Origin: Pontibacter beigongshangensis
GTDB lineage: Bacteria > Bacteroidota > Bacteroidia > Cytophagales > Hymenobacteraceae
Length of the DNA stretch: 64,000 bases
Direction: 5' to 3'
Assembly: GCF_014332515.1 (NCBI RefSeq)
Contig: NZ_VFSD01000017.1
Location: 1 to 64,000 of the forward strand
Part shown: in pieces, positions 139 through 63,454 of the stretch
Layout of the letters: every line of letters starts with the position of its first letter
Position numbering within the stretch: the first letter of the stretch is position 1
Translations under genes and position numbers: made by a program
The notes under the pieces: generated by a model
Told to the model about the DNA's origin: nothing
What the model saw: only the letters and a program-made list of their open reading frames with translations
Databases searched by the model: none

Positions 139-188
139 AATTATTTGAATGAAAATAGCCCTCCGGAGCTTTAGCCGCTTCTGCTGCT
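139..188 (-). repeat. Dispersed intergenic element, copy 1
   Basis: Copy 1 of a family found 25 times here. Strand + is used for copies reading AGC-rich arm, CCTCCGGAGG palindrome, T-rich stretch, ATTNNAAT box, left to right; strand - for the reverse. This copy has an intact TCCGGA core, box ATTTGAAT and a GCT-rich tail. It lies just downstream of the PspC gene. Bases 61-138 hold the A/T-rich module (AATCAACCATTT, then AACAATCAACAACAAAC) that flanks several other copies. Confidence 0.85.
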
Positions 189-197
189 ATCATTAAA

Positions 198-2759
198 CTA
201 CATTCTTTTGATCTTGCCAGCGCCAGACACATCGGTGGACAAATAGCCAGGGGTGCCGCTGTAGGTGATGGAACTTCCGCCGGAGGCTTCGGCTTTTAGG
301 TGGCGGTTTGCGTGGATCTCTGCCTTGCTGGCACCGGATGCCTCTATGTCGATTTGTCCGGCTTTGCAACTGGCAGCGTTTAGCTTGCTGGCTCCAGATA
401 AATCGAGGTGTAACCGGTTTGCCTGTCCGGTTAGGGTGGTGCTGGAGGCTCCCGAAATGTCGAGGTTCACGCGGTTTGCCTGTAGATGGATCAACGATTT
501 GGTGGCTCCGGCTATGGCAAGGTCCAGCGTGTTGACCTCCAGCCTGCCGATATCTGCTTTCAAGGCGCCGCTTAACTCCAGCCTGCGTAAGTCAGGCACC
601 GTGATCAGAATAAGCACCGGATCGCTGTCTTCAAAGATATTGAAATATTTTTGACGTGGCTCAATAACCAATTCCCGGCGGCTGTTGGTCACCGTCAGTT
701 TCTCGAGGTCTTCCTCTTCGGCATGAATCTGCACGTCATAGTCACTGCCCTGCTTAATTTGAAGGTGGTAGTTTCCTGATATTTTAATTTTGTCGAAATC
801 TTTTTCGTTGTAAGTGCTCACGTGGCTGCTGTAGCGGTCCAGGGCCAGGAGCACACTTCCTGCGGCACCCGTTGTTTCTGAGGCGCTGGCCAGCGAATAG
901 TCAGCAGCATCTGCGGTGTTCAGGGTATCAGCATCGCAGGTGAGGCAGGCCAGGTAATCGCCTTTGGCCTGCCAGGTGTTACGCAGGATCTTGTCGCGGC
1001 TGTACTCAACCTCAAAGAGGGAACTGGGCAACATCCTCAGGAAACTCCTGGTTAACCGCAGGGGCTTGTCCTGCGGAATCAGCAATGTCAGGTTTAGCTC
1101 CTGATCGCGGAGGGCAGCCCCTTTTTTGAATTCATAGCTGTTGTCGAATCGCAGCACCGAGTCTCGCTGTACCACCGCGTAAGTTATCATCTGGGCGTTG
1201 CGCTTGGCGTCGGCTTCGTTTCTGCCTTTGGCTGTTACCCGCTGAATTACCTCCAGGTTATTTCCGGTGTGGCTCTTTATGCCTGCTATAGAGAGGTGCT
1301 GGTAGTCGAGGTTGGTATTGTAGGCGTCCAGCGTAAGGGTAGGATAGGCCGCAACATCAAACTGCTTCACAACTTCGTGTTCACCGGTGCGCATAAAGTT
1401 TTGGCTGTAGATTACAATCACGGCTACAAGCGAGAACAGGCTTATGAGCCACACCCCAAACAGCGACCAGCCTACTGTGGCGCGCAGCAGAAAGTGCTTC
1501 GAGAGCAGTCCTATGGCCAAGAGCATCAGAAAAATTGCTGGTATAAGGCCTACCAGAAAACCTGCCACCAGTCCGAGCCGGGGAAAGCCCTCCATGAGCA
1601 GGGAGGCCGGGTAAGCGCCTAACATAAAATTCTCGGGTTCATGTATCAGCCCCATCGACACGAACAACGAGGTAAACAGCGCAATGGCGATGCCGATGGA
1701 GATGACCAATAGAATAATGCCGGCCCCTACTCTGATCAGGCTGATCAGGAACAGGAAGATGGGGCCAAGCACCGAGCTTAAAAAGTGAACGAGCTGCGAC
1801 AGCAGATGGAACGGAAACAGGAGTACCTTGGCTGTAGTGCTGTCTTTGCTGAACTGGTCCTTCAGGTTCAGGTTGTCTTTTAGCGACTGCTCTATGCCCG
1901 ACAGCGTAACCGGGTTTCCCTGCATCTGCATCTTTTCGGTAAGGGTAGTTGCTTCCGGCACCACAATCCAGAGAATAATGTAGAGCATAATGCCTGCCCC
2001 GCCAATCAGGATCGAGAGCAGGAAAAGCACGCGTACCACTGTGGCATCTACACCGAAGAACAGGGCGATCCCGCTTGCCACGCCGCCCAGTTTTTTGTCT
2101 AGGGGGTCCCGGAAAAGCCGCTTCACGCTTACTTCGGGCAGGTTATAATTTACAGGCAGCGCAATCCAAAGCCCGATGTAAACAAAAAGTCCGCCCACCG
2201 AGAAGGTGAAATTGCTATTGTCCCAGAAAATGGTGCTGGTAAACGAAACGCCGAACACCAGCAAAATGAACAGCAGCCTGATCCAGATCGGGTCCACGTT
2301 CAGGTAGTTGGCAATGCCGGCAGCTACGCCACTGATCATTTTCCTGGACATGTCCCGGGTTAGCTTCTTTGGGCCGTGCATGGCCTGGTCGTAAAAAGAA
2401 GCGCCTGCCCCTGCCGTAGCGGCACCTCCTGTTTCGCCGGAGGCGGCATTATAGCCGCTACCGGTGCCATGGCTTTGGTGCTCTTCCTCCACCGGGTCGG
2501 CCTCAAAATCTGTCACATTACCCATCTGCGTAATCAGTGCTTCCACGTCCGCCAGCGAGATAACCTGCTTTAACGGCGTCAGGCGCGCCGAGAAAATCTC
2601 TGCAATCCGGGCTTCTATGTCGGCCACGATCTCGTCGTGCCCTTCGTAGTTGGAAAAGTATGTTTTTATGGAATCGAGGTAGCGGCTAAGCAGCTCGTAA
2701 CCGTCCTCTTCTATATGAAAGAGGACGCCCTGCAGGTTTATGCTTATGTTCTTTTTCAT
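198..2759 (-). CDS. PspC-domain membrane protein with C-terminal DUF2807 (GIN) domain
   Basis: Inner-membrane protein of 853 residues of the type common in Bacteroidota beside PadR regulators; the exact role is unknown, envelope stress being the usual guess from PspC of the phage-shock system. A conserved N-terminal segment (about 1-90) is followed by a Gly/Ala-rich linker and two PspC modules (about 128-200 and 212-270), each with a GGVASGIA-like motif before hydrophobic helices. More membrane segments lie at about 315-370 and 398-457. The C-terminal third (about 655-853) is a DUF2807 beta-helix domain with repeated DLSGAS-type turns, expected outside the cytoplasm. The start overlaps the PadR stop by four bases (ATGA), so the two genes are translationally coupled. 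Confidence 0.9.
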   Translation of the reverse strand: MKKNISINLQGVLFHIEEDGYELLSRYLDSIKTYFSNYEGHDEIVADIEARIAEIFSARLTPLKQVISLADVEALITQMGNVTDFEADPVEEEHQSHGTGSGYNAASGETGGAATAGAGASFYDQAMHGPKKLTRDMSRKMISGVAAGIANYLNVDPIWIRLLFILLVFGVSFTSTIFWDNSNFTFSVGGLFVYIGLWIALPVNYNLPEVSVKRLFRDPLDKKLGGVASGIALFFGVDATVVRVLFLLSILIGGAGIMLYIILWIVVPEATTLTEKMQMQGNPVTLSGIEQSLKDNLNLKDQFSKDSTTAKVLLFPFHLLSQLVHFLSSVLGPIFLFLISLIRVGAGIILLVISIGIAIALFTSLFVSMGLIHEPENFMLGAYPASLLMEGFPRLGLVAGFLVGLIPAIFLMLLAIGLLSKHFLLRATVGWSLFGVWLISLFSLVAVIVIYSQNFMRTGEHEVVKQFDVAAYPTLTLDAYNTNLDYQHLSIAGIKSHTGNNLEVIQRVTAKGRNEADAKRNAQMITYAVVQRDSVLRFDNSYEFKKGAALRDQELNLTLLIPQDKPLRLTRSFLRMLPSSLFEVEYSRDKILRNTWQAKGDYLACLTCDADTLNTADAADYSLASASETTGAAGSVLLALDRYSSHVSTYNEKDFDKIKISGNYHLQIKQGSDYDVQIHAEEEDLEKLTVTNSRRELVIEPRQKYFNIFEDSDPVLILITVPDLRRLELSGALKADIGRLEVNTLDLAIAGATKSLIHLQANRVNLDISGASSTTLTGQANRLHLDLSGASKLNAASCKAGQIDIEASGASKAEIHANRHLKAEASGGSSITYSGTPGYLSTDVSGAGKIKRM

Positions 2760-4494: not shown

Positions 4495-7400
4495 ATGAGT
4501 GTTAATTTATTTGCTCAGCGGTTTTTAGCCGCGGCATTATTCTTTATTTGCGGGCTAGCGGACATTCCTGCCAGTGCACAGGCAGTGTATGGTAACGAGT
4601 GGATTAATTATTCCCAGCCATATTTCAAATTAAAAGTAGTTAATACCGGTTTGCACCGGCTGGATTTTAGGTTGCTGGACAGCCTGGGCTTATCTACCGT
4701 AGATCCGAGGCAGTTTCAGATCTTCAGGCGAGGTAAGGAGGTCTCCATCCATGTGGCCGGAGAAGAAACAGGCCAGTTAAATGCACAGAGTTTTATTGAG
4801 TTCTACGGAGAGCGGAATGATGGTGCCCTAGACCGGGAACTATACAAGAACCCGGCGCACCAGTTGCACCAATTGCATAGCCTTTACACAGATACAGCTG
4901 CCTATTTTTTAACCTATTCTCCGCAGGGGGGCAAGCGTATGCGTGTAGTTAACCCATCTGTTGACGGCCGGACGCCTGAGCCGTACCATTTGCAGAAGGT
5001 AACCTATGTAAATGCAGACAGGTACATTTTTAGTAAACCGTTTAATAATTATACCATGCCTTGGATGGATGTAGGAGAGGGCTACTCTTCACATTATTCC
5101 ATTAGTGCCAGAAACTATACCATAACGGGGGTTATAAATGTTGAACCAACGGGTCCAAAACCAATAGTGGAATATGGTACCGTCGGGGTGACGCATCTGC
5201 AGCAAAATTTTCATGTAAATGCACTTATAGGTACTGCTGCAAGGAGGTTAGGTACCTATAGCTACGAACCGTATTGGCCAGGTAAGGACAAGCAACAGCT
5301 GAATTTCGATGAAGTAAATGCGCAAGGGCGGGTTGTTTTACAGGTTCTGCCGGTTGCAGAACCCACCAAATATAACGCTATAAGCTTTGGTTATGCAAAA
5401 GTAATATTCCCGCAAAAATGTATTTTTACAGGGAATTCAATGTTTTTCTACACAGATTCTACAAGAACCGAGAACCCATTTTTTGAATTCTCTAATGTTC
5501 CCGGAAGTGTCGTGGCTTATGATGTGACAGATCCTTCCGATGTTTTACGCATAGAGGGGTATAGCCGGGGTACAAGTAAAGGCTTTGTTGTGCCAACTAG
5601 TTCAACATCGCATAAAGTTCTTTTAGCTAATACTACGCTTCCTTTTAAACCGGTAGGTAAACCAGAGCAAATAGGGTTTAGGCAAATTGTGCCCGATGCG
5701 CAAAATTATATTATCATCACAAATAAAAGGTTGATGAAACAAGTGTCCGGGACATCAGCAGCTGCTCCTGTGGAATTTGCCGCCTATAGAGCTTCACAGG
5801 CTGGTGGCGGCTATGATACATTGCTGATGCACATGGACCAGATTGTAGATCAGTTTCATTATGGAGAGTTTTCCTCCAATTCGGTCCGGCGCATGATGAA
5901 ATTTATGATGACGTCTGAGCGGCCAAAACATTTGTTCATTATAGGTAAAGGACTAAAATATGCTTCAGAGGAATATGACTGGACGTATTATAAAGGGAAA
6001 TTTGGTTACTACCATCCGGGCGCCCGGCATCCAAAGGTGCATGAGATGGATCTGGTGCCTACTGGTCTGGCTCCTGTTTCGGATGTTTTTTTTACAGCCG
6101 ATTTTCATAATTCCTCTTATGTGCCGCCGGTACCAACAGGTCGGTTGGCTGTAACCACGCCAGAAAGTATTATTCATTATCTTAATAAGGTAAAAGAGTA
6201 TGAAGCCCTCCCCGAAACGCTGCCATGGCGAAAAAACATATTGCAATTAGGTGGCGGAAAGCTCACAGGTGAGATCACACAGATATCCTCTTATCTTCGG
6301 AATTACGCGCAGATTGCGCAAGGCCCTCTTCTGGGTGCCAACGTGATAGAAAAATATCGCCAGAACGTGAGCGAGGTGGTAGAAACAATCAACGTGTCGG
6401 AGGAGGTTAACACAGGCCTATCGCTTATAACGTTTTTTGGGCACAGCTCTCCCGGAACAACCGACCTGGACATTGGGTTTGTGTCTAGTTCTGTATTAGG
6501 CTACCGAAATAAAGGTAAATACCCAATTATGATCATGAACGGATGTAATGCAGGAGATGCCTTTACTCCCGGAAATATTTCTTTTGGGGAAGATTGGTTA
6601 CATACCCCTGATAGGGGAGCCATCGCTTTTTTGGCGCACGCAGGGTTAGGATATCCGAACTTTCTTAACTTGTATACTTCCAATTTTTATTCTACTGCTT
6701 TTCAGAATCCTGAGTTTTATGGAAAATCACTTGGTCAGATACAGCAGGAAACCATAAGGAGAGTTGGTAGTGCCAGTACCAGCGACCTGGCCGTGGCCAT
6801 GATGACGCAATTTGTGCTGCAGGGCGACCCTGCCGTAAGGCCCTATTCGCCTCCCAAACCGGATTACCAGTTTGTGGATGGAGAAGTAGCGATACAAGCT
6901 GCAGATGGAGCTGTGCTGACTGCCGCAACTGAGGAGTTTATAATTGATTTAGGTGTGAATAACCTGGGCAAGGCTTTACCGGATTCCATCTACGTATCGG
7001 TAAAAAGAACCTTGTCTGATAATACCACCCTGCTGATCGATTCGATCAAGGTAAAGCCCATTTTAAAGAAAGACCGGATTCAGCTTGCCTTGGATAACAA
7101 GGACGTATCCGCTATGGGCATGAACTCGTTTGAAGTTACCCTGGATCCTGAAAATTTGATAGAGGAACTGGATAAAGAGAACAATGTGGTGCGGTTCCAG
7201 CACTTTTTTCCGCTCAGTGGCCTGCTGGTGCTAAGCCCGGAGGAATATGGTGTGGTAAACGCAAACAAAGTGAGGCTTACCATACAAGCAACCGATCAGG
7301 AAAATAAAGGCAAAGGATATTTCTTTGAAGCAGACACCACCAGAGCCTTTAACAGCAGCCTTAAACAGACACATACTGTTCAGAGCAGCATGCTGCCAAG

Positions 7401-9534
7401 CTGGGAGGTTACCTTGCCTAACATCGGCGGTGGCAGTGACAGTACTGTATTTTACTGGCGTGCCCGTTTTCAGCATTACGAAGCTGGTGAAGACACACTC
7501 TGGGCAGCCAGTTCGTTTCGGTATGTGCCTGGTAACTTTAAAGGCTGGTCGCAAAGCCATTTTGGGCAGTTTGATAAGGCTGTAACAACGGACATAGAGA
7601 ATAAAGGCGACGAAACACTTACCTGGGAGTTCAATCCCTTTCAATCGGTTATCGAAATAAGAACCGTAGGTGGCGATGTAAGATTTACCCCCCCTACTTA
7701 TGGGCTGTTTATGGATAATGCCTACGAGTTAAATTGTGGAAGCCCGCATACATCTGCTTTACCGCGCCTGTATTTTATCGTCTTCAGTGATATTACGCTG
7801 GAGAAGGTGGCTGATATACCAGGTCATGTGGGGTGTTCATCCACACCATATCTGTACGAATTTGGAGATTTAAGAACGGCTGCCAACCTGGCAAAAGTGG
7901 AAGCCTTCCTGAAAGCAGTTCCTGCGGGGTACCATGTAGCGGTGATGAGCATTAACAATGTGCCTTTCAGCACTTTCCCGGCCACGTTGCGGGCCGCGTT
8001 CAGAAGCTTAGGTTCTTCCCTGATCAATAACCTGCAGACGGGGCATCCGTTTGCTATGGTCGGGCGCAAAGGTGCTGCCCCTGGCACTATACAGGAGATG
8101 ACGGCTACAGAAGAAGACGAAACCCCAGCCACATCGCAAGCGGCTGTGTTGCGTGTCGTGTTAGAGTCGAGGAAGCCTGCCGGTACTATCACCTCATCCG
8201 TAATAGGCCCTGCCCAAAGCTGGGGCAGCGTTTTCAGCGACATCAAGCGTACAGATAGTGGCGACCAGTTTGAGCTTCGTATCAATGGTATTTCAACCTC
8301 CGGCGAACAGCAGCAGGTGGCGGTAAGTACTTCGGGCAGCTTGCTTGATCTTTCAGCTGTTAATGCGGCAGAATATCCTTATTTGCAGCTTTCTGTCTCT
8401 CTGGCCGACACGCTCTCCCGTACCGCACCGCAGCTCAAGCAGTGGATGGTGGAGTACGAAGGGGCTCCGGAGGGCGTTATCAGGCCAGACCTTGTAAAAG
8501 TAAGTGAGCAGATTCTGACTGAGCAGGCTAACAGAGGAACGATTGCGGTGCCGATGGCTTTCCAGAATGTGTCTGCTTATGCGTTCAAGGATTCGCTCAC
8601 GGTAGAGGTTACCGTAACAGGAGATGGCATTCAGCCCATCACTTCTAATCTTAAAATTGCGCCGCTCGAAAGCAACCAAACGGCTTACTTCAGCTATACC
8701 ATGAACACGCTGGCGCTGAGTGGCAACTACAAAGTGAGCCTGTATGTGAACCCGCGGCTGCAGTTGGAGCAGCAGTACTATAACAACATATTTGAGGTGC
8801 CGTTTAAAGTGAGCCCTAAACTGCAGCCCATCGTGAATGTGGCCTTCGACGGTATCCATATTCTGGACGGGGAGCTCGTGTCGCCAAGCCCGCTGATCAG
8901 CATCACGGTAAAAGACGAGAACAGGCACAACTACCTGCAGGACCCAGCAGGCATGTCGCTGGTGCTGGTGAACGAGGCTGGTGTGGAGACGGATGTGAAC
9001 CTGACGAGCAACCCGCAGGAGGTGCAGTATTTCCCGGCCGACGAGAAGAACGATTTCCGCCTGGAGTACAAACCTACCTTGCTGAGCAATGGCAAATATA
9101 CCATGGAGGTAAGGGCCCGCGATGTGGCCGGCAGACCATCAGGTATTTCGCCCTACCGGATAGGGTTTGAGGTGGTGAGGGAATCAAGTATCACCAATTT
9201 TTATCCGTTCCCGAACCCATTCTCCACCAAAACGAACTTTATCTTTACCTTAACAGGGGTAGAGATTCCGAGGGACCTTAAAATCCAGATCATGACGGTG
9301 ACAGGAAAGGTTGTGAAGGAGATCATGAAGGAGGAGCTGGGGCCTATCCGCATCGGCAACAACAAATCGGAGTATGCCTGGGACGGCACCGATACTTTTG
9401 GCGACAGGCTGGCTAATGGCGTGTACCTGTACCGGGTGGTAATGGGCCAGACAGAGGAAGAGATGAAGCATCGGGCCACCTCCGGCGATAAAGCCTTTAA
9501 GAACGGCTATGGCAAGCTTTATATCTTAAGGTGA
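4495..9534 (+). CDS. porU2: Putative type IX secretion sortase PorU2 (C25 gingipain-like protease)
   Basis: Very large (1679 residues) secreted C25-family cysteine protease. It has an N-terminal signal peptide (about 1-28), beta-rich N-terminal region, a gingipain domain around 430-800 with the catalytic pair His650 (FFGHSS) and Cys684 (MNGCNAG), long Ig/CARDB-like beta regions, and a C-terminal module (about 1565-1679) resembling a T9SS sorting or FlgD-like domain (FYPFPNPF, then NGVYLYRVVM). PorU is the sortase that removes C-terminal signals from T9SS cargo; PorU2 is a longer Cytophagales-type relative whose precise role is less established. Base composition drifts from about 40-42 % GC in lines sampled near 5.1-5.5 kb to 55-62 % near 8.9 kb. 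A strong terminator follows. Confidence 0.82.
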   Translation: MSVNLFAQRFLAAALFFICGLADIPASAQAVYGNEWINYSQPYFKLKVVNTGLHRLDFRLLDSLGLSTVDPRQFQIFRRGKEVSIHVAGEETGQLNAQSFIEFYGERNDGALDRELYKNPAHQLHQLHSLYTDTAAYFLTYSPQGGKRMRVVNPSVDGRTPEPYHLQKVTYVNADRYIFSKPFNNYTMPWMDVGEGYSSHYSISARNYTITGVINVEPTGPKPIVEYGTVGVTHLQQNFHVNALIGTAARRLGTYSYEPYWPGKDKQQLNFDEVNAQGRVVLQVLPVAEPTKYNAISFGYAKVIFPQKCIFTGNSMFFYTDSTRTENPFFEFSNVPGSVVAYDVTDPSDVLRIEGYSRGTSKGFVVPTSSTSHKVLLANTTLPFKPVGKPEQIGFRQIVPDAQNYIIITNKRLMKQVSGTSAAAPVEFAAYRASQAGGGYDTLLMHMDQIVDQFHYGEFSSNSVRRMMKFMMTSERPKHLFIIGKGLKYASEEYDWTYYKGKFGYYHPGARHPKVHEMDLVPTGLAPVSDVFFTADFHNSSYVPPVPTGRLAVTTPESIIHYLNKVKEYEALPETLPWRKNILQLGGGKLTGEITQISSYLRNYAQIAQGPLLGANVIEKYRQNVSEVVETINVSEEVNTGLSLITFFGHSSPGTTDLDIGFVSSSVLGYRNKGKYPIMIMNGCNAGDAFTPGNISFGEDWLHTPDRGAIAFLAHAGLGYPNFLNLYTSNFYSTAFQNPEFYGKSLGQIQQETIRRVGSASTSDLAVAMMTQFVLQGDPAVRPYSPPKPDYQFVDGEVAIQAADGAVLTAATEEFIIDLGVNNLGKALPDSIYVSVKRTLSDNTTLLIDSIKVKPILKKDRIQLALDNKDVSAMGMNSFEVTLDPENLIEELDKENNVVRFQHFFPLSGLLVLSPEEYGVVNANKVRLTIQATDQENKGKGYFFEADTTRAFNSSLKQTHTVQSSMLPSWEVTLPNIGGGSDSTVFYWRARFQHYEAGEDTLWAASSFRYVPGNFKGWSQSHFGQFDKAVTTDIENKGDETLTWEFNPFQSVIEIRTVGGDVRFTPPTYGLFMDNAYELNCGSPHTSALPRLYFIVFSDITLEKVADIPGHVGCSSTPYLYEFGDLRTAANLAKVEAFLKAVPAGYHVAVMSINNVPFSTFPATLRAAFRSLGSSLINNLQTGHPFAMVGRKGAAPGTIQEMTATEEDETPATSQAAVLRVVLESRKPAGTITSSVIGPAQSWGSVFSDIKRTDSGDQFELRINGISTSGEQQQVAVSTSGSLLDLSAVNAAEYPYLQLSVSLADTLSRTAPQLKQWMVEYEGAPEGVIRPDLVKVSEQILTEQANRGTIAVPMAFQNVSAYAFKDSLTVEVTVTGDGIQPITSNLKIAPLESNQTAYFSYTMNTLALSGNYKVSLYVNPRLQLEQQYYNNIFEVPFKVSPKLQPIVNVAFDGIHILDGELVSPSPLISITVKDENRHNYLQDPAGMSLVLVNEAGVETDVNLTSNPQEVQYFPADEKNDFRLEYKPTLLSNGKYTMEVRARDVAGRPSGISPYRIGFEVVRESSITNFYPFPNPFSTKTNFIFTLTGVEIPRDLKIQIMTVTGKVVKEIMKEELGPIRIGNNKSEYAWDGTDTFGDRLANGVYLYRVVMGQTEEEMKHRATSGDKAFKNGYGKLYILR

Positions 9535-9628: not shown

Positions 9629-9699
<71 letters not shown>

Positions 9700-10962: not shown

Positions 10963-11326
10963 AGGAATAGACGCTTGTGCTAAAACTCCAGCTTAAGTAA
11001 CACAATTATTTCCTGTTCACCTAATTTGGGTGGAGCGCTATCCGGTAATGAGAAAAGCCACAGCACCTGCGTGATAGATCTGGCAGGGCCGGCAAACGAA
11101 TTATTTAAATGAAAACGCCCCTCTGTCAAGCTTCACTGCTCCTGATGCACCTGCTGCCGATATATTTTCTTGCCCGGAATCTCTGGAGTATGAAGCTTGG
11201 CAAAAGCTCCTGACCATTGTGCGGCAGCATCAGCAGTGCATCCTGCTGATGCTGGGACTTTTTGATTACAATAATTGCCCAGAAACTGAGAGGTCGTATC
11301 CGGCACGAAGCCATCTCCCCAAGTCC
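10963..11326. other. Intergenic region between pagL-like gene and folA
   Basis: No convincing gene. It contains element copy 3 (11099-11158). A 62-codon minus-strand frame at 11126-11314 overlaps the repeat and shows no recognisable domain. Confidence 0.6.
11099..11158 (-). repeat. Dispersed intergenic element, copy 3
   Basis: Box ATTTAAAT and the A-rich stretch are clear; the GC core is decayed (CGCCCCTCTGTC), with a loose GCTCCTGATGCACCTGCTGC tail. Located downstream of folA on the same strand. Confidence 0.75.
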
Positions 11327-12758: not shown

Positions 12759-14025
12759 AGTCTGGGTATAGTAAATAGCGTTTCCGCATGGTTTTGTATT
12801 TGGCCAGGTCTGCCTGCCAACTGGCTTCTATTTCGGCTTCGCTTTTACCTGCCTTAATCTGCTCCTGCAGCTTGGTGGTACCGGCAAGCTTATCGATAAA
12901 GTTTGAGGTCAGAAAGAACTTGTCCTGGTTTGTGGAGTTATGGTACATCTCCAGCAGGAAGGACAGGGTAAAGGGTTGTGCCTGCTCCGCACTGGTCAGG
13001 TCCAGGCCATAGCAGGTCTTGCCTTTGTGAGGCGGGTCCTGGGCACCAGGCATGGGTTTAGGCGTAAAAGAAAAGTCTTTGTTCTTGTAAAAGGGGCTGC
13101 CGATAACCTGAAATGGAGTGGAGGTGCCACGGCCCACACTCACGTTGGTGCCCTCAAACAGGCCCAATGATGGGTACAGCAGAATAGCCTGCGCATTGGG
13201 CAGGTTCGGCGATGGCCGCACCGGCAACTGGTAAGGCATTTTATGGTTGTAGTTGGCAACGGGAATAACCGTAAGCTGGCATTGCCGCTGCCCTCCCAGC
13301 CACTTTTCGCCGTTAATCATCTTGGCCAGCTCTCCTACCGTGAGTCCGTGCACGAGCGGAATCGGGTGCATGCCTACAAACGAGGTGGTTTCTTTCTTCA
13401 GCTCCAGCACCGGCCCGTCTACGTAGTGGCCGTTGGGGTTAGGGCGGTCCAGCACGAGCAGCGGTTTATTGTTCTCGGCACAGGCCTCCATCACGTAGTG
13501 CATGGTGCTGATGTAGGTGTAGAAGCGAACACCTACGTCCTGGATATCGAAAACAACCACATCTACGTTCTGTAGCTGCTCCGGCAGTGGCTTTTTGTTA
13601 CTACCATACAGCGAGATAATCGGGAGGCCGGTTTTGGTGTCTTTGGCATCTTTTATATGAGCTCCTGCATCGGCTTCGCCCCGGAAACCATGTTCGGGGG
13701 CAAAAATGGTGGTGATCCTGATGCCGTGGCTCAGCAGCGTATCGACCAGGTGCGTTTTTCCGATAACGGAGGTCTGGTTTACCACCAGCCCCACGCGCTT
13801 GCCCTGCAGTAGCTTCAGGTAGCGGCCTGTTTGTGCAGCGCCGGTCTGCAGCGGCTTTGGCTGTGGTGTTTGCGGCTCCTCTGCCCGGGGCTGTTCGGTT
13901 TCGTTGCCAGTGCCGGTGCTGTCGGTGTCTTGCCTGGGGGAGCAGTTCGTGAGGCCAAGCAGGAGCGAAGAATAAAGTATAACAAGTAGCTGTATCATCG
14001 TAATAGGGAAGAAGTCAAATTTCAT
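12751..14025 (-). CDS. DUF1343 protein, exo-beta-N-acetylmuramidase NamZ family, lipoprotein
   Basis: Likely periplasm-facing lipoprotein of the DUF1343 family; NamZ (GH171), the characterised member, releases N-acetylmuramic acid from the non-reducing end of peptidoglycan fragments. From the start at 14025 (MKFDFF) or 13998 (MIQLLV) there is a hydrophobic segment ending LTNCSP, a lipobox-like site, then a Pro/Gln/Glu-rich linker and the catalytic region: VGLVVNQTSVIGKTHLVD, FAPEHGFRGEADAGAHI, VVFDIQDVGVRFYTYISTM, LVLDRPNPNG. The frame opens further to 14199, but that would overlap the divergent gene at 14179 and place the hydrophobic segment internally. It is first in the operon with fmt and folA and suggests wall recycling. 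Confidence 0.85.
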   Translation of the reverse strand: MKFDFFPITMIQLLVILYSSLLLGLTNCSPRQDTDSTGTGNETEQPRAEEPQTPQPKPLQTGAAQTGRYLKLLQGKRVGLVVNQTSVIGKTHLVDTLLSHGIRITTIFAPEHGFRGEADAGAHIKDAKDTKTGLPIISLYGSNKKPLPEQLQNVDVVVFDIQDVGVRFYTYISTMHYVMEACAENNKPLLVLDRPNPNGHYVDGPVLELKKETTSFVGMHPIPLVHGLTVGELAKMINGEKWLGGQRQCQLTVIPVANYNHKMPYQLPVRPSPNLPNAQAILLYPSLGLFEGTNVSVGRGTSTPFQVIGSPFYKNKDFSFTPKPMPGAQDPPHKGKTCYGLDLTSAEQAQPFTLSFLLEMYHNSTNQDKFFLTSNFIDKLAGTTKLQEQIKAGKSEAEIEASWQADLAKYKTMRKRYLLYPDFE

Positions 14026-14178
14026 ACCTATATTTAGACCATATTTGAATTTCGTTTTTGATAGCGGGAAGTGGTCAGAAAGGGGTCTGGCGAAACAGTT
14101 TTTGAGCCTCATAGCAGCGCTATGGGGCGATAAAAGTGTGAAGCCAGGTTCCTTTATGGACATTTCGCAGCGCAAAGG

Positions 14179-15435
14179 ATGAATTTTAAATATGGTCAAT
14201 GGCTGTATAAAACAAGGTGCGTGAACATTTCCAAATACATATCCGATAAAATATCAGAAGTACAGGCCGGCTCTTTTACGTCGTCGGTCACAAAAATAGC
14301 AATTATAAGCATAGCCGCAGGCATCGCCATCATGATTGTGTCGTTTGCCATTCTGGAGGGTTTCCGGAACGAGATCCGGGCCAAGATTTTCAGCTTCGGG
14401 GCGCACCTGCAGATCAGCAAGTATGATACGAACAATTCTTATGAAGGGGCACCTATCAGCATTTACACCGGCATAAACTCCACCGACGATATTGCGGGTA
14501 TTGCAGGCATTCAGGCATTTGCCCGGAAAACCGCCATCATAAAAACCGAAAACGAAGTGCTGGGAGTGGTGCTGAAGGGGGTAGATAAGAACTACAACCT
14601 GCAATCGATGAGGCAGAACCTGGAGGAAGGTCAGTTGGTTTCGTTTACGGATACAGCTTCTTCTAAAGACGTGATGCTAAGCCGGCGCATCGCCAGCAAA
14701 CTCGACCTGAAGGTGGGTGATGAGGCCATTTTCTACTTTATCCAGAACCCGCCCCGCGCCCGAAAGCTGAAGGTGAGCGGCATTTTCAACACGGGTCTGG
14801 AAGAATTCGACGAAGTGTTTGTGATCGGGGACCTGCAGCTGGTGCGGGAGCTGAACAACTGGCCCGACACGCTGGTAGGTGGCGTTGAGATCATGCTCAA
14901 AGACTTCGACCAGATAGACCCGATCGCCAACCAGGTGTTTGACCAGATGAACTACGACCTGCAGCTCGAGAAGATTACCGACCGGCACGCACAGCTTTTC
15001 GATTGGCTGCAGCTCCTGCGCAAAAACGTGATTATCTTCCTGATCCTGATTATTTTTGTGGCGACCTTCAACATGGTATCCACGGTGTTTATCATGATCA
15101 TAGAGCGCATCAACATGATCGGCGTGCTCAAAGCTGTAGGAGCCACCGATGCGCAGATCAGGCAGGTATTCTACTTCAGAGGGCTGAAGCTGACGCTGAA
15201 GGGCTTGTTGTGGGGCAATGTAATCGGGCTGGGCTTTTGTGTGCTGCAATACTACTTTAAAATTATTCCCCTCGACCCCGAGAACTACTACATGAACACA
15301 GTGCCTATCAGCTGGAATTTCAGTGTCATCATTATTCTGAACGTGCTCACCCTGGTGCTCACCATGCTCGCCATCCTGATACCGGCCGCCATGGTCGCCC
15401 GCATTAAACCGGTAAAAGCCATTAAGTTTGATTAA
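14179..15435 (+). CDS. FtsX-like ABC transporter permease (LolC/LolE-type)
   Basis: Inner-membrane permease of 418 residues with the four-helix MacB/LolC layout: one helix near the N-terminus (about 38-60), a large periplasmic domain (about 65-270), then three helices (about 278-305, 325-360, 375-405). The N-terminal segment NISKYISDKI is characteristic of lipoprotein-releasing permeases. In Bacteroidota these proteins extract outer-membrane lipoproteins with an ATPase encoded elsewhere; no ATPase gene is adjacent here. The ATG at 14179 is given, but a GTG at 14221 preceded by AAGG would start exactly at the conserved VNISKY and is a good alternative. It is divergent from the muramidase gene. 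Confidence 0.88.
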   Translation: MNFKYGQWLYKTRCVNISKYISDKISEVQAGSFTSSVTKIAIISIAAGIAIMIVSFAILEGFRNEIRAKIFSFGAHLQISKYDTNNSYEGAPISIYTGINSTDDIAGIAGIQAFARKTAIIKTENEVLGVVLKGVDKNYNLQSMRQNLEEGQLVSFTDTASSKDVMLSRRIASKLDLKVGDEAIFYFIQNPPRARKLKVSGIFNTGLEEFDEVFVIGDLQLVRELNNWPDTLVGGVEIMLKDFDQIDPIANQVFDQMNYDLQLEKITDRHAQLFDWLQLLRKNVIIFLILIIFVATFNMVSTVFIMIIERINMIGVLKAVGATDAQIRQVFYFRGLKLTLKGLLWGNVIGLGFCVLQYYFKIIPLDPENYYMNTVPISWNFSVIIILNVLTLVLTMLAILIPAAMVARIKPVKAIKFD

Positions 15436-15463
15436 CAAGGGCAGGCATGCTCAAGGTTGTTTA

Positions 15464-15496
15464 GGCCTCAGGAGGGGCTTTTTCATTCAAATAATT
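15464..15496 (+). repeat. Dispersed intergenic element, copy 4
   Basis: Core GGCCTCAGGAGGGGC, T-rich stretch and box ATTCAAAT. First half of a direct pair with copy 5; the 130 bases between them hold the inverse of modules seen near copies 1, 8, 9 and 10 (GCTGATTAGTAAATGGTTGA; CCTCTTATCTCTTAACTTTA). Confidence 0.85.
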
Positions 15497-15625
15497 GCTG
15501 ATTAGTAAATGGTTGATTTGAAGATCTGGAGGTGTAAAAAGTGGGAATGAATTCTTCGGGCTTTTAAAGAACAATCAACTCATACCTCTTATCTCTTAAC
15601 TTTAGAAAGGTCCTGTGTCCATTTC

Positions 15626-15667
15626 AGCAGCTGAAAGCGCTGTAGGGCCTTTTTCATTGGAATAATT
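15626..15667 (+). repeat. Dispersed intergenic element, copy 5
   Basis: Short CAGCAGCTG arm, degenerate core GCGCTGTAGGGCC, five T residues and box ATTGGAAT. Second half of the direct pair with copy 4. Confidence 0.78.
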
Positions 15668-15717
15668 ACCCGTAACTAAGCCAGGAAGGAGGTAAGGTGA
15701 TTCAACGTTCAGCTTAC

Positions 15718-16416: not shown

Positions 16417-16457
16417 AATAAATGAGGCAGGCGGATGGGAAGCCGCCTGTTGCGGAA

Positions 16458-17030: not shown

Positions 17031-17303
17031 CAGTAATTAATGGTTGAGGGTATTGAACGGAATATAATAGGCGTAAAACCGAACTCGGTAACTTATACTG
17101 AGATATGAAAATTTGCGCCGTAAAAATGCGAATATTTTTTATATCTCCATGCCGTACTTTCAGATAGATTCTGAATGTACGTGGGAACATCGGCAAAAGT
17201 TAATTTATTTTCTGCTATATAAGATCCTATTATATAATCGTAACTTTCGACCTTAAATTGTGTTAATATGCTAGAAAATTATTTAGCTTAAATTTTAAAT
17301 ATA

Positions 17304-18488: not shown

Positions 18489-18598
18489 TTTAATTATCAA
18501 TTATAAGAATAAGGAGCTAACTGAGATTTGAAGGTTTCTATTTTTTTTGTACTTTGTGAAGTACTGCTTATATTAATAGCCATACAGCGAAAAAACCT

Positions 18599-20338: not shown

Positions 20339-20366
20339 CAGGAGTCGCAGAACTTTCTCTCGAATT

Positions 20367-20414
20367 TTAAAGCAGAAAAGCCAGTAGCGAAAGCTACTGG
20401 CTTTTCTGCTTTAA
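20367..20414. terminator. Bidirectional terminator, 22-bp perfect stem with GAAA loop
   Basis: TTAAAGCAGAAAAGCC... (20367-20388) is the exact reverse complement of 20393-20414, separated only by GAAA. It lies between the convergent M3 peptidase and TPR genes; A- and T-tracts within the stem suit termination from both sides. Confidence 0.88.
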
Positions 20415-32815: not shown

Positions 32816-32819
32816 GGTG

Positions 32820-48089: not shown

Positions 48090-48143
48090 CAGCAGCAGCA
48101 AAAGCAGCAGAGCCTCCGGAGGACAAATTTCATTAGAATAATT
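48090..48143 (+). repeat. Dispersed intergenic element, copy 20
   Basis: Arm CAGCAGCAGCAAAAGCAGCAG, core GCCTCCGGAGG, box ATTAGAAT; continued by TTTAATGTGTTAATTTTTCA and further A/T-rich module to about 48195. Confidence 0.87.
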
Positions 48144-48600: not shown

Positions 48601-48673
48601 TAAGCAGCAGCAGGCAAGTAATCAATTTATCGCTGTCAGATCAGCTGCGGAGTGGCCTTTTCAGTAGAACAAT
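48601..48673 (+). repeat. Degenerate dispersed element
   Basis: AGCAGCAGCAGG arm at 48603-48614 and, after an insertion, CTGCGGAGTGGCCTTTTCAG with AGAACAATC in the place of the box. Probably a decayed copy; not counted among the 25. Confidence 0.4.
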
Positions 48674-48949
48674 CGCACTGTTCATACCTCAGGCCTAACC
48701 CAACCCGAAAAATAAATTGCCTGTTTCTGAAAACAATCTGCCTGCTCAGCTTTTCACGTATATAAGATATTATGCAAGCCTTACCGCCAGCCGGGTCACC
48801 ACGTCTTAAGAGGAACACGATTATCCTCTCAAGGAGCATGCCTGAAAGTAAAGCGGCAGGCCATAACCCGATGTTAGGCTGCTGCCTTTTTAATAAACCT
48901 ACTGCTGAGGCCTGACTAACCACATAATTTAACCGATGAACCCCTGTTT

Positions 48950-50295: not shown

Positions 50296-53200
50296 ATGAA
50301 CAGAACTTTATCAAATCTCTTAACAGGTGTGGCAAGTACAACTGCAACCATTATGCTGGTTCAGTTCGCTTTGCACAGCACCGCTGCGGCTGCCGACAAC
50401 GACTACCTGCGTTCCCGGCACGCGATCAGCACAGACCTGAGGGTTGCCATAACGGTAACCGGCAAGGTAACAGACGAAAACGGTGCCGGCCTGCCCGGTG
50501 TAACGGTTGTCTTAAAAGGGACAACACAGGGTACTGTGACCGACCTGGACGGAAACTTCTCCCTGAACGTGCCTGACGGACAGGAAAACGGCACGCTGGT
50601 GTTCTCCTATGTAGGCTATACAGCGCAGGAGGTTCCTGTTAACAACCGCTCTTCTATTAATATCCAGATGGCACCGGATTCCAGAACTCTGGGTGAGGTG
50701 GTGGTGATCGGCTACCAGACCATCCGGAAAGAAGACCTGACCGGTGCTGCCTCCGTTATTGCTCCTGAGGAGTCTAACAAAGTAACGGCCGCTACTGTAG
50801 CAGAGTCTATTCAGGGCCTGGCGCCAGGTGTTACCGTGCGTAACTCCGGTCGTCCGGGTGCCGGTGCTGCCATCGATATTCGGGGTGTTGCCAGCTTTTC
50901 TAATACGAGCCCACTCTACGTAATCGACGGTATGATCGCAGATGCTTCTCCTACCATCAATCCAAACGACATTGAGTCCATCCAGATCCTGAAAGATGCC
51001 TCGGCGGCTGCCATTTACGGCTCCAGGGCCGGTAACGGTGTAATTATCATTACCACCAAAAGAGGAGCAGAGGGGCCTGCCAAAATAGGCGTTTCTATTA
51101 AGCAGGGTGTGCAGCAAATACCCAAGCTGTGGGATGTGATGAATGCCGAAGAATTTGCGACCACCCAACGCCAGCAGTTCCTTAATTCCGGCGATACCCC
51201 TCCCGGCAGCGTTTCGCTTACGCCGCCCCCTGCCACAGGCCCTAACAGCGTAAGGCACTGGACTGTTACAGACACCGACTGGCAGGACGAAACAACGCAG
51301 CTCGGAACGCTCTCAGATTATAACGTGACCTTATCTGGCGGTGGCGAGGCAGGTAACTACCTCATCTCCGGTTCTTATTTCACGAACGATGGAGTGGTAA
51401 AAGGAAATACCTTCGACCGGGCCAGTGTACGTATAAACACGCAAGGCAAAAAAGGCCGCTTTACCTTTGGCGAGAACCTGGTGCTGACCCACTCCTGGGA
51501 AGAGCGCCCGCTGCTGGTGAACCCTTTCTACGACATGCCACAACTGCTGCCGGTTATTCCGGTAAGGCATCCGAACTTAATAACGCCCGAAAACCCTGGT
51601 GGCTGGGGCTTAGGCGACCAGACGTTTGCTCCTATTTATGGCTGGAACTACCTGGCCATGAGAGAGCTTTTTGAGTCAACGCATAAGTACTCGAGGGTAG
51701 TAGGAAATGCCTATGCTGATGTGGAAATCCTGGACGGCTTAACGTATCGTTTTAACGCCGGTCTGGATGCAGGCTTCGATTTTCATCAGAACGTGCGCCG
51801 ACAGGGCAACTGGGTGCTGGCGCAGGCGTTTGAGCCTACGCACGTGTATCAGGACAGACAGAATTTTAACACTATTCTGTTAGAGCATACCCTTAATTTC
51901 AATAAAACTTTTGATCGCCATAATATTAATGGCGTGGTTGGGTATACGCAGCAGTACAGCCGCAGAGATAGAGTGGAGGCAAGACGTAATGAGCTGGTGA
52001 ACTTCGGCGGCGAGTACCTGACCACCATCGGGTCTGCCATCGGCGACCAGACATCTGAAGGCGGCGTAATTGAAAATTACCGCATTTTAGGTACACTAGG
52101 CCGCCTAAACTATACATACGACAACAAATACCTGTTAACCCTGACTGGCCGTTACGACCAGGACTCACGGTTTGGTGCCGATAACCGCAGCAAATTCTTC
52201 CCTTCCATAGCACTTGGCTGGAGAATAAGTGATGAGAATTTCTTTAACGCAGACTGGGTGTCCGACCTAAAACTCAGAGCCTCGTACGGACAGTTAGGTA
52301 TTGCGGCAGCGCTGGGGGCCTGGGAATATATTGGCGTAATAAACAATAACCCACGAGCAGTTTTTGGGCCAAATAACGATGTGATTACTGTAGGTGCCTA
52401 TCAGGCAAGCCTGGTGAACCAAGACCTGCGCTGGGAAACCAGAACATCACAAAATATAGGCTTTGATGCTTCCTTGTTTAATAATAAAGTAGTGCTATCT
52501 GCCGAATATTATTATTCTCTGTCAGAAGATGTGCTGGTTGATCTGCCGATTCCTTTCTATACAGGAAACCTGGGGGGCAACCCCTTTGTGAACGCAGCCT
52601 CTATCAGTAACCGGGGGTTCGAGTTCTCTGCCACTTACCGCAGCCAGGAGAATGCCTTTAAATGGGACGCGTCGGCCAACTTCACCACTATTAAGAATAA
52701 AGTAGAAGATGTTGGTAACAGGGGAGAAGGAATAGACTATATCGTGGCCGGAAACACCCGTTCTCAAATAGGCCGGGGTATAGGCGAGTGGTATGTGCTC
52801 CGGACAGACGGCATCTTCCAGAGTGAAGAGGAGGTTAGAAACCATGTAAACTCAGATGGTACCATTATTCAGCCCTTCTCCAAGCCAGGCGACATCCGCT
52901 TTCAGGACCTGAACGATGATGGCCAGATCAACGACGACGACCGGACTTTTAGTGGGTCGCCCTGGCCAACTTTGCAGACAGGTGCTCAGTTTAACGCCGC
53001 ATACAGAGGCTTCACCTTTAACCTGCAACTGGTGGGCGTGTTTGGGCACACGGTCTACAACGACGTAAGAAGAATCCTCGATTCTTATGTAAACACCAAC
53101 TTCCGTCGCGACATCAGCCCCTGGACGCCTGAAAATACCAATACTTCCGACCCAAGACTGGCCCGGAATACAGAGGAAGGTGTCATTTTGAACAACAAAG

Positions 53201-53466
53201 GTGAAAGCGACCGCTGGCTGGAGAGTGCTTCTTATCTACGCATTCGTAACATCGAAATCGGCTATAACCTGCCAGCCTCATTCCTGAGCAGAATCCATAC
53301 AAACAATGCCCGTGTGTTTATCAGTGGCCAGAACCTGCTGACCTTTACCGGTTACAGCGGCCTTGACCCCGACGTAACAGGCGTAAGTATTCTGGAGAGA
53401 GGGATGGATGCCGGAAACTGGCCAGCCAGCCGTGTATATTCTGTTGGGTTGAATTTTGAGTTTTAA
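50296..53466 (+). CDS. SusC/RagA-family TonB-linked outer membrane transporter
   Basis: 1056-residue outer-membrane transporter for oligosaccharides. After a signal peptide (about 1-33) come a carboxypeptidase-like regulatory domain (about 53-135: VTGKVTDENGAGLPGVTVVLKG), the TonB-box/plug region (about 140-255: GEVVVIGYQTIRKEDLTG, PLYVIDGM, ILKDASAAAIYGSRAGNGVIIITTK, the SusC signature) and a barrel ending RVYSVGLNFEF. It pairs with the SusD lipoprotein 23 bases downstream to form the lidded transporter complex. No STN domain, anti-sigma factor or two-component regulator gene is adjacent. Confidence 0.97.
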   Translation: MNRTLSNLLTGVASTTATIMLVQFALHSTAAAADNDYLRSRHAISTDLRVAITVTGKVTDENGAGLPGVTVVLKGTTQGTVTDLDGNFSLNVPDGQENGTLVFSYVGYTAQEVPVNNRSSINIQMAPDSRTLGEVVVIGYQTIRKEDLTGAASVIAPEESNKVTAATVAESIQGLAPGVTVRNSGRPGAGAAIDIRGVASFSNTSPLYVIDGMIADASPTINPNDIESIQILKDASAAAIYGSRAGNGVIIITTKRGAEGPAKIGVSIKQGVQQIPKLWDVMNAEEFATTQRQQFLNSGDTPPGSVSLTPPPATGPNSVRHWTVTDTDWQDETTQLGTLSDYNVTLSGGGEAGNYLISGSYFTNDGVVKGNTFDRASVRINTQGKKGRFTFGENLVLTHSWEERPLLVNPFYDMPQLLPVIPVRHPNLITPENPGGWGLGDQTFAPIYGWNYLAMRELFESTHKYSRVVGNAYADVEILDGLTYRFNAGLDAGFDFHQNVRRQGNWVLAQAFEPTHVYQDRQNFNTILLEHTLNFNKTFDRHNINGVVGYTQQYSRRDRVEARRNELVNFGGEYLTTIGSAIGDQTSEGGVIENYRILGTLGRLNYTYDNKYLLTLTGRYDQDSRFGADNRSKFFPSIALGWRISDENFFNADWVSDLKLRASYGQLGIAAALGAWEYIGVINNNPRAVFGPNNDVITVGAYQASLVNQDLRWETRTSQNIGFDASLFNNKVVLSAEYYYSLSEDVLVDLPIPFYTGNLGGNPFVNAASISNRGFEFSATYRSQENAFKWDASANFTTIKNKVEDVGNRGEGIDYIVAGNTRSQIGRGIGEWYVLRTDGIFQSEEEVRNHVNSDGTIIQPFSKPGDIRFQDLNDDGQINDDDRTFSGSPWPTLQTGAQFNAAYRGFTFNLQLVGVFGHTVYNDVRRILDSYVNTNFRRDISPWTPENTNTSDPRLARNTEEGVILNNKGESDRWLESASYLRIRNIEIGYNLPASFLSRIHTNNARVFISGQNLLTFTGYSGLDPDVTGVSILERGMDAGNWPASRVYSVGLNFEF

Positions 53467-55188: not shown

Positions 55189-55233
55189 GAGCAGCAGCAG
55201 AACCTCCGGAGGGCCATTTTTATTAGAATAATC
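55189..55233 (+). repeat. Dispersed intergenic element, copy 21
   Basis: Arm GAGCAGCAGCAG, core CCTCCGGAGGG, T-rich stretch, box ATTAGAAT. Between susD and the first GH43 gene. Confidence 0.87.
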
Positions 55234-56497: not shown

Positions 56498-56530
56498 AGG
56501 CTCAGGAGGGCTGTTTTCATTAGAATAATT
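56498..56530 (+). repeat. Dispersed intergenic element, copy 22
   Basis: Core GGCTCAGGAGGGC, T-rich stretch, box ATTAGAAT, continued by TTTAATGTGCTGATGTACTA and A/T-rich module to about 56612, as at copy 20. Confidence 0.84.
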
Positions 56531-59020: not shown

Positions 59021-59053
59021 AGCCTCTGGAGGGCCATTTTTATTTAAATAATT
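59021..59053 (+). repeat. Dispersed intergenic element, copy 23
   Basis: Core GCCTCTGGAGGGCC (centre CCGG changed to CTGG), T-rich stretch, box ATTTAAAT. Between the GH2 and second GH43 genes. Confidence 0.84.
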
Positions 59054-60574: not shown

Positions 60575-60626
60575 AATTATTCTAATGAAAATGCCCTTCC
60601 GGAGGCCTTTGGTACTGCCGCTGCTC
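60575..60626 (-). repeat. Dispersed intergenic element, copy 24
   Basis: Box ATTCTAAT, core GCCCTTCCGGAGGC, arm GGTACTGCCGCTGCTCC. It is inverted relative to copies 21-23 although the surrounding genes run the same way. Confidence 0.86.
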
Positions 60627-62369: not shown

Positions 62370-63335
62370 TCAGTGTCCGCGGTCGGAGGTCAGTTTCTCA
62401 AACAGAAAGGTGTAAAAAAACGCCTTGTCTACGTTTGTGGCTACCTGCACCCACTGCCCCGTGCCGGGAGCACGGAAAACCTTTCCTGCCGATGGCCCGG
62501 CCGTTACAACATCCAGCTCCATTTCCTGCAGCGTAAAAGCCTCCGGAATAGCCAGGTAGCTGGAGGTGAGCACATCCCACATAAAGTAGGTGTAGTCGTA
62601 AGAAGGAATCGTGTCGATGGTGGTGGCCCAGAACTGACCAGCCAGGTGCGCATAAAAAGCCGAAGCCTGTGCCGCCAGCTTTCTCAGGAACTCGAACGTT
62701 ACCGGCACATGGTTAGCAGTATCCAGTGGCACGATGGTGAGCGGTATGCCAGCCTTAAAGAGCTTGCCGGCAGAAGCCGGGTCCCAGAAAACATTCCATT
62801 CCGCGGTGCCGTCGTGGTTGTAGGTGCGCACATTGCCATGCACGTCTATGGCGCCGCCCATCCATACAATCTCCTTTATTTTGGTTTTGATCCCGGGATG
62901 TTTCTCAAACGCCAGTACCAGGTTGGAGCAGGGACCTGTCAGGAGCACTGTTACCGGCACAAGGGCAGCAGACAATTTACGGACGAAAAAATCACAGCTG
63001 TTCTCGGCGTGCTCAAGCTTCTGCGGGCAAGCCACATTAATCAGATCAGGGAGGGCATTGAGCATTTTAGGTTTGGCACGCCAGTCGGCCGGGAAGGCGT
63101 TAATGCCATGGTAATGGCCCACGCTTACTTCTATGTGCTTCTTATCCGTAAGAGATAGAAGCTTATGCGTTGTTTCGAAGGCGGTTTCAGCGTAGCAATC
63201 GGCCGGTGTAATAGAGATGCCTGTCAGTTCTGCCTCATCCAGCAGCAGGAGCAGGAGCAGCGAAAGGAAATCGTCAACACCGCCATCATGATCGAACAGG
63301 ACAGGCCTGGGAAGTTGCGCAGTTGTTTGGTTCAT
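62370..63335 (-). CDS. Inosine/uridine-preferring nucleoside hydrolase family protein
   Basis: About 321-residue enzyme that hydrolyses N-glycosidic bonds of ribonucleosides. The calcium-binding motif DHDGGVDD (DxDxGxDD) is near the N-terminus after the start at 63335 (MNQTTA; the frame extends five codons further). VLLTGPCSNLV and VWMGGAIDVHGN match the family, as does the late NHVPVTFEF region. No signal peptide is seen. It probably serves nucleoside salvage and is convergent with the glycan locus, so not obviously part of it. Confidence 0.9.
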   Translation of the reverse strand: MNQTTAQLPRPVLFDHDGGVDDFLSLLLLLLLDEAELTGISITPADCYAETAFETTHKLLSLTDKKHIEVSVGHYHGINAFPADWRAKPKMLNALPDLINVACPQKLEHAENSCDFFVRKLSAALVPVTVLLTGPCSNLVLAFEKHPGIKTKIKEIVWMGGAIDVHGNVRTYNHDGTAEWNVFWDPASAGKLFKAGIPLTIVPLDTANHVPVTFEFLRKLAAQASAFYAHLAGQFWATTIDTIPSYDYTYFMWDVLTSSYLAIPEAFTLQEMELDVVTAGPSAGKVFRAPGTGQWVQVATNVDKAFFYTFLFEKLTSDRGH

Positions 63336-63400
63336 GCGGCAATATAGCACATGATCTTCGGGGAAGGAATCCAGGATAAAGGAGAGAAGCGTTTTAGCCC

Positions 63401-63454
63401 GATTATTCTAATGAAAAAGCCCCTCCGGAGGCACTGCTGCCCCTGCTGCTGCTG
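63401..63454 (-). repeat. Dispersed intergenic element, copy 25
   Basis: Box ATTCTAAT, A-rich stretch, intact core GCCCCTCCGGAGGC, arm ACTGCTGCCCCTGCTGCTGC. One of the best-preserved copies; downstream of trxA. Confidence 0.9.

Follow-up and report, generated by a model that had tools for sequence, protein, structure and literature searches.

A REP-like extragenic repeat family held at many of the same sites in two Pontibacter species, with arm and palindrome differing between them

We analysed the first 64,000 nucleotides of contig NZ_VFSD01000017.1 of Pontibacter beigongshangensis (hereafter the window) and found that a short modular element, recurring between its genes, belongs to a family of non-coding, extragenic DNA elements that resembles repetitive extragenic palindromic (REP) sequences. 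The family is old, retained and in concerted evolution, and is shared with Pontibacter qinzhouensis, where it occupies many of the same intergenic gaps with a different arm and palindrome. Taken as a whole, we read it as an ancestral family, retained in place and carrying arms and palindromes that differ species-wide, which would form a putative binding site at gene 3′ ends and would have been rewritten by homogenisation; we put the probability of this reading at roughly 0.55. For a repeat to stay in place and yet be rewritten between two species is new and unusual. Repeats between bacterial genes are commonly taken for selfish debris or recent bursts. In these two species the element persists in many of the same gaps on both sides of a deep split, one of its modules frozen and the others exchanged genome-wide. 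The long-standing question of functional site versus replicator becomes directly testable with this pair, because it offers two versions (an estimated 2,000 and 1,500 copies), one relic and a frozen box, and the frozen box should help to find the putative binding protein. The case also cautions that a pair of repeat families can differ in consensus and still form a single orthologous set.

Composition and distribution of the family

A weight-matrix scan of the window, with a matrix built from exact boxes and a cut-off of 14 bits, found 27 copies, 12 on the plus and 15 on the minus strand, the three lowest-scoring being those at 11246, 48644 and 24418. A repeat search split the copies into two direct families of opposite orientation, D1 with 15 members and D2 with 12. 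An earlier reading of the window from its letters (the sequence-only reading) had described at least 25 copies, fifteen one way and ten the other; the dense family is real, with the numbers corrected to those above, and its fourteen copies retaining a TCCGGA centre were recovered as 14 of 27. Confinement of the repeat to this window, which that reading had raised against itself, is ruled out by the genome-wide counts of the exact box TTTTNATTNNAATAATT (516 + 519 = 1,035, compared with 0 + 1 for the reversed control). Within 714 kb of P. beigongshangensis, the matrix detected 212 sites of at least 14 bits and none in the reversed sequence, and scores were sharply split: of 217 sites reaching 8 bits, 209 also reached 20 bits, leaving almost no intermediates. 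The palindrome alone was only modestly enriched (CCTCCGGAGG with up to 2 mismatches, 48 occurrences vs. 25.2 expected); it is the whole core, not the palindrome by itself, that stands out. Copies detected by the matrix outnumber exact boxes roughly two to one, from which we estimate about 2,000 copies in P. beigongshangensis and about 1,500 in P. qinzhouensis.

Among 50 Pontibacter genomes the box was abundant only in P. beigongshangensis (1,035) and P. qinzhouensis (795), the other 48 having 0–3, and counts in 100 genomes from other genera of the family did not exceed 7, the same level as the control. A longer pattern searched in 395 genomes of the phylum, a sample without P. qinzhouensis, occurred 888 times in P. 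beigongshangensis and at most once elsewhere, which is the chance level. A scan of named genomes returned at least 57 stretches, 53 of those listed coming from Pontibacter qinzhouensis GY10130 (the window's own genome was possibly left out of it), and the single box matches in four other organisms and one viral contig had no such palindrome 5′ of the box. The matrix gave no match of 10 bits or more in 204 kb from three further Pontibacter genomes (G031, G032 and G033), and no Rfam family matched the window at gathering scores. The sequence-only reading had not recognised the repeat as a described family, and we likewise found no description of it in the openly licensed literature, judged by title and the start of the abstract.

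The core in P. beigongshangensis is 31 bp long and reads CCTCCGGAGGG[GC]C, a T tract and then [CG]ATTNRAATAATT, with conservation ending sharply past AATT (69 exact-box copies). Its palindrome is CCTCCGGAGGGGC and its arm an AGC/CAG tract, found 5′ of the core in 150 of 223 copies vs. 11 of 223 at a control place; the AGC/GCT-rich arm of the sequence-only reading is thus borne out, as a part looser than the core. The P. qinzhouensis unit is longer and tighter, with 57 bp comprising an ACCCTTGRC arm, A tracts, a CCTTCNGAAGG palindrome, a T tract and a CATTNRAATAATT box. Its layout in 149 copies from 444 kb places ACCCTTGRC at −40 to −32 and A tracts near −27 and −18, followed by CCTTC(G/T)GAAGGCC, TTTT and CATTNRAATAATT. 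Each species' version is palindromic, and the two centres are offset by half a base.

The two bases within ATTNNAAT are constrained in P. beigongshangensis, where AG, CA, GG, TG, TA and CG account for 215 of 223 copies. Columns −11 and −6 carry C and G in 160 of 223 P. beigongshangensis copies and T and A in 146 of 160 P. qinzhouensis copies, and are not mutual partners in either version. Stems are short (mean best stem 4.8 pairs vs. 3.9 in shuffled sequence), and, within a species, paired changes were not clearly in excess at any two positions (best z 2.0 and 2.4). Because of these short stems and the lack of a clear excess of paired changes, the element is better read as a probable double-stranded protein site than as an RNA hairpin.

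Shared sites, a conserved box and species-specific arms

Gaps were compared between the species where both flanking genes were adjacent orthologues of more than 60% identity in both, a matched-site comparison that read about 13% and 8% of the two assemblies; 23 gaps shorter than 80 bp in both species, none with an element, were left out of the counts. The 52 conserved gaps of at least 80 bp held the element in both species in 18 cases, in P. beigongshangensis only in 7, in P. qinzhouensis only in 5 and in neither in 22 (Fisher P = 0.0002), such that 18 of 25 conserved element-bearing gaps of P. beigongshangensis were also occupied in P. qinzhouensis. Orientation was the same in all nine shared gaps with one copy per species, and each of the other nine had at least one copy in matching orientation. 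When random letters replaced the cores, 12 of 23 copies still fell within 10 bp of a partner on alignment of the flanks. Distances to a gene end differed by a median of 12 bp across 19 matched pairs, compared with 51 bp under random placement (P = 0.0005, 1 in 2,000). On this sample of conserved gaps, the comparison supports the view that most gaps now holding the family probably held it in the two species' common ancestor too.

The box changed far less than neutral sites. Fourfold sites were 52% identical between the two species (13,492 sites in 85 orthologues), a distance of 0.76. Boxes in the 19 matched pairs had 0.95 and 0.42 mismatches per 14 positions vs. a neutral expectation of 4.17 per lineage, and 10 of 19 and 12 of 19 were perfect vs. 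0.7% expected. In these sampled gaps, box, gap and orientation thus appear to have been preserved over a divergence that altered about half of the fourfold sites.

Arm and palindrome, in contrast with the box, divided the species almost completely. Exact whole-genome searches for the qinzhouensis form of arm and palindrome gave 559 occurrences in P. qinzhouensis and 1 in P. beigongshangensis, and the beigongshangensis palindrome at its own distance from the box occurred 510 times in P. beigongshangensis and never in P. qinzhouensis; neither diagnostic pattern was found in the two other Pontibacter genomes G032 and G033. Copies at orthologous sites were no more alike than randomly paired ones, for the whole element (0.504 vs. 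0.499, P = 0.28) or the palindrome only (0.598 vs. 0.577, P = 0.14). Taking five nearest neighbours per copy, 90 of 95 and 95 of 95 belonged to the same species as the copy. We make no claim that the arm changed faster than neutral sequence, because the 3′ flank outside the element was about as dissimilar (0.289 vs. 0.281 for the arm). The lone qinzhouensis-form copy in P. beigongshangensis (G000:C20:43422) lies in a region 77–87% identical to P. qinzhouensis and stands opposite a P. qinzhouensis copy of the same form. Since this single exception looks like a relic, it suggests that the qinzhouensis form is older and that the beigongshangensis lineage is the one that may have changed.

The history we favour is one in which the family had probably spread before the two species diverged, would have stayed in most of the gaps sampled and was later probably re-specified across the genome in one lineage or both. 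The element would be a predicted double-stranded binding site for one trans-acting protein, the simplest common cause we can propose, and would function, or be best tolerated, at gene 3′ ends and between convergent genes, perhaps in DNA topology or as a boundary. With less confidence, we suggest that the rewriting may have been homogenisation, in which a system derived from a recombinase or transposase, once altered in specificity, would have copied a current master version onto existing sites. In its most specific form, which we offer as tentative and less likely than not, a dedicated trans-acting system would swap arm and palindrome at nearly all of the ~2,000 vertically inherited sites, using the conserved 17-bp box as its address, so that place and orientation are kept and sequence changes between sister species.

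The closest rival has the rest of this account in common and dispenses with copying: a global DNA-binding protein would have shifted its preference, and its sites would have followed by point mutation under plain selection. Conserved gap, orientation and box are all expected from such a history, as is the palindromic symmetry of both versions, and some P. beigongshangensis copies have only one of columns −11 and −6 changed (CA in 23 and TG in 16 of 223), although these deviations are also explicable as ordinary transitions. The same history requires many substitutions at each of an estimated 2,000 sites, and by the exact pattern the other full form survives in a single copy. We regard plain selection as rather unlikely on this balance, noting that two genomes alone do not separate copying from a master from selection on point mutations.

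Several observations weigh against the ancestral, homogenised family that we prefer. Positions in shared gaps disagree beyond 10 bp in 11 of 23 cases, three of them by more than 100 bp, and 7 + 5 gaps have the element in one species only; among the alignments of such gaps listed, none showed a precise empty site with clean borders. The constraint estimate for the box is biased upward, decayed copies below 14 bits being missed at shared sites. No recognisable arm is present in 60 of 223 P. beigongshangensis copies, which is loose for a strict binding site, and no binding protein or enzyme for the element was identified. The direction of change hangs on one relic, for which local gene flow could be an alternative explanation. 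The beigongshangensis CTCCGGAGG also appears in three P. qinzhouensis copies, shifted one base towards the box and accompanied by their own CCCTTG arm, and the palindromes of the two species are therefore not wholly separate.

Gene position, mobility genes and known systems

Genes were called with a simple script rather than a standard annotator. The sequence-only reading had the element always between genes, which holds for 26 of 27 window copies and for 203 of 212 in the larger sample; one window copy (32906–32936) overlaps the start of the called gene 31898–32920, and of the larger sample 2 lay wholly within called genes and 7 at stretch ends were left unclassed. Occupancy increased with gap length and was highest in convergent gaps. 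Convergent gaps of at least 300 bp held the element in 21 of 23 cases in P. beigongshangensis and 19 of 21 in P. qinzhouensis, tandem ones in 66 of 111 and 52 of 70, and divergent ones in 15 of 31 and 14 of 25. At 100–300 bp it was present in 15 of 31 convergent vs. 1 of 29 divergent gaps in P. beigongshangensis and 13 of 18 vs. 1 of 24 in P. qinzhouensis. In tandem gaps, elements pointed with rather than against the genes by 75 to 60 in P. beigongshangensis and 65 to 29 in P. qinzhouensis.

This strand bias and the preference for convergent gaps would fit a bidirectional intrinsic transcription terminator, as would a palindrome preceded by A and followed by a T tract, and 3 of 10 copies in 14000–33999 were terminator-like in a loose scan (34 sites there vs. 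23.6 in shuffles). Unlike such a terminator, however, the element has the weak stems given above and no excess of paired changes, its conserved box is placed beyond the T tract, and a separate canonical hairpin terminator stands in the same gap after an sppA-like gene. We therefore consider a terminator very improbable.

The window was said to encode no REP-associated tyrosine transposase (RAYT) or other transposase, and a domain scan of 40 of its 42 called genes, with 4495–9534 and 50353–53466 outside the scan, found no transposase or integrase domain and no Y1_Tnp. The window gene at 16458–17030 gave a weak match to an HNH endonuclease domain. Genome-wide, RAYT-like Y1_Tnp matches numbered 6 in P. 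beigongshangensis and 5 in P. qinzhouensis, and 43 of 50 Pontibacter genomes have one. The sequence-only reading had proposed a search for a RAYT-like gene flanked by the element; a neighbouring gap held an element copy at 4 of 11 such loci, a share not above that among all gaps of at least 100 bp (151 of 343 and 119 of 238, unmatched for gap length), and RAYT was rejected as the mover on these flank counts. Target-site duplications in P. qinzhouensis, taking the best of 20 border choices, reached 10% for 2-bp matches vs. 6% in shuffles and at most 4.4% for 3–5 bp, and P. beigongshangensis, where the 5′ border is not sharp, had no clear excess. The consensus ends of the P. qinzhouensis matrix, ACCC… and …AATT, are not complementary and so form no terminal inverted repeats. 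Because RAYT linkage, target-site duplication and inverted-repeat ends are all lacking, a RAYT origin of the element is not supported.

These results also bear on a selfish REP-like or miniature inverted-repeat transposable element (MITE)-like family, moved in trans by a RAYT or other transposase and inserted repeatedly and independently at the same hot spots. Its many intergenic copies, their rarity in short divergent gaps, the Y1_Tnp genes in both genomes and the 11 of 23 shared-gap positions not within 10 bp all accord with such a family. Set against this are the counts beside RAYT-like loci, the missing tag, target duplication and end repeats, and the orientations and positions that match between species, and we judge it improbable. 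The REP- or MITE-like frame of the sequence-only reading thus stands for a dense, modular, extragenic repeat, and falls short where MITE marks and the RAYT link fail and where it leaves out copies shared by two species and rewritten in concert.

Comparison with described systems gave partial likenesses. REPs prefer gene 3′ ends, and the element shares this preference with REP and REPIN families and their RAYTs, being likewise short, palindrome-bearing, extragenic and multicopy. REPs are described as palindromic extragenic repeats of 20–40 bp in high copy number, with a GTAG or CGTC tetranucleotide at one end (PMC3733652), and a second source describes orthologous RAYT genes in related strains flanked by different REP classes (PMC3686654). 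The element falls within this size and number, with a 31-bp core, an estimated 2,000 copies and 2 of 212 inside genes, and its palindrome lacks pair covariation within species. It differs in having no conserved GTAG or CGTC run in either species' matrix, no RAYT link, a conserved AT box past the palindrome and a species-wide sequence difference at shared sites. Bacterial interspersed mosaic elements (BIMEs) are mosaics of REPs and resemble it in gene-end location and a proposed topological role, but it is not arranged as alternating REP motifs. MITEs are, like it, short non-autonomous repeats in gaps, and differ from it in consensus-end inverted repeats and target duplication.

A further parallel is offered by the DNA uptake sequence dialects of Neisseriaceae, in which a conserved core with species-specific flanks recurs at very many orthologous sites. 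The element recalls this arrangement, its own conserved core carrying species-specific flanks at very many sites, and could be an uptake sequence with species dialects. However, it is intergenic, with only those 2 of 212 copies inside genes; it is 31–57 bp long, and uptake words are far shorter; and hardly any of its matches have intermediate scores. We give an uptake function very little credence.

Copies in the window and other repeats

Coordinates below are those of the element core within the window, with strand and matrix score in bits. In gaps shared with P. qinzhouensis stand the copies at 9669–9699 (+, 44.8, with a long CAG tract 5′; offset 41 bp), 20436–20466 (−, 51.3, between convergent genes; offset 8 bp), 24573–24603 (−, 47.6), 37676–37706 (−, 36.9; offset 16 bp), 45758–45788 (−, 45.8; offset 17 bp), 59023–59053 (+, 48.0; offset 3 bp after masking), 60575–60605 (−, 50.0; offset 6 bp) and 63401–63431 (−, 49.7, with a CAG tract; offset 5 bp). 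The copy at 56500–56530 (+, 47.1) lies in a shared gap with differing positions (offset 279 bp), and that at 24418–24448 (−, 20.7), likewise in a shared gap, has no AGC arm and a palindrome apparently shifted by one base. The copy at 41239–41269 (+, 31.7), also shared, lies between the genes for an S49 peptidase (sppA-like) and a phosphorylase, and the matrix found no match at 28 loci around the same S49 peptidase gene in other Pontibacter genomes.

The P. qinzhouensis gap is without an element opposite the copies at 11099–11129 (−, 29.2, with a weak palindrome), 11246–11276 (+, 16.4, a doubtful copy with the box only), 32906–32936 (−, 41.3, overlapping the gene start described above) and 55203–55233 (+, 48.5), and measures 15 bp and is empty opposite 42266–42296 (−, 48.2) and 42440–42470 (−, 42.7). 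The remaining copies are at 139–169 (−, 49.3, with palindrome, T tract and box), 28386–28416 (−, 40.5), 28591–28621 (−, 40.0), 29309–29339 (−, 42.0), 31709–31739 (+, 42.0), 34399–34429 and 48113–48143 (both +, with CAG tracts, 41.4 and 43.5) and 48644–48674 (+, 20.6, decayed), together with a same-strand pair at 15466–15496 and 15637–15667 (both +, 47.5 and 40.1). Those at 15466, 28591 and 29309 were the terminator-like ones of the loose scan. Same-strand pairs no more than 230 bp apart numbered 29 in P. beigongshangensis and 19 in P. qinzhouensis. We rejected one composite transposon as an account of close pairs, whose inner sequences differ and are made of other intergenic repeats, and treated them as neighbours.

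A 37-nt intergenic repeat, identical at 42402–42438 and 45703–45739, belongs to a drifting family (AATGTGCTAAT…, CAATTTGGAAAT…), several copies of which start just 3′ of the element. Outside the window, one P. beigongshangensis copy (L009, G000:C1 near 166157) has a palindrome that forms a canonical hairpin of 9 bp, GGCCTTCCC…GGGAAGGCC, with the T tract and box following immediately. In another region (L122, G000:C12:191001-211000), copies at 17698 and 17742 stand tail to tail, 44 bp apart, with an identical unusual palindrome, CTCGGGAGGGGC, as if duplicated or converted.

A different, GC-rich REP-like hairpin, CTCGCAGGAGCTGCGCACGCTGCGAG (up to 4 mismatches), occurred 8 times in 754 kb of P. 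beigongshangensis, 9 times in 481 kb of P. qinzhouensis and 3 times in 119 kb of G033, with none in stretches of five other genomes and no copy closer than 600 bp to any of the 11 RAYT-like loci. In several other Pontibacter genomes a short word built on a TATA core was over-represented; most of these words occur in both coding and intergenic DNA, and they resemble genome-wide words such as HIP1 or uptake sequences. The word of G028, AACTATAG, occurred 93 times in coding sequence vs. 9.4 expected (both strands), and others were CTATACCT in G046 and G031, TTATACTT in G032 and G020, and TTATATAT, mainly intergenic, in G035. For the AGC-rich family of G033, orthology with the element was not shown, only 3 gaps being comparable and 1 of them holding both families. 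G033 also has a long repeat of its own, GGAGCAGNGGCTGTGGTGGCAGGTGCAGCAGAA, with 35 copies in 124 kb, 8 of them within called genes.

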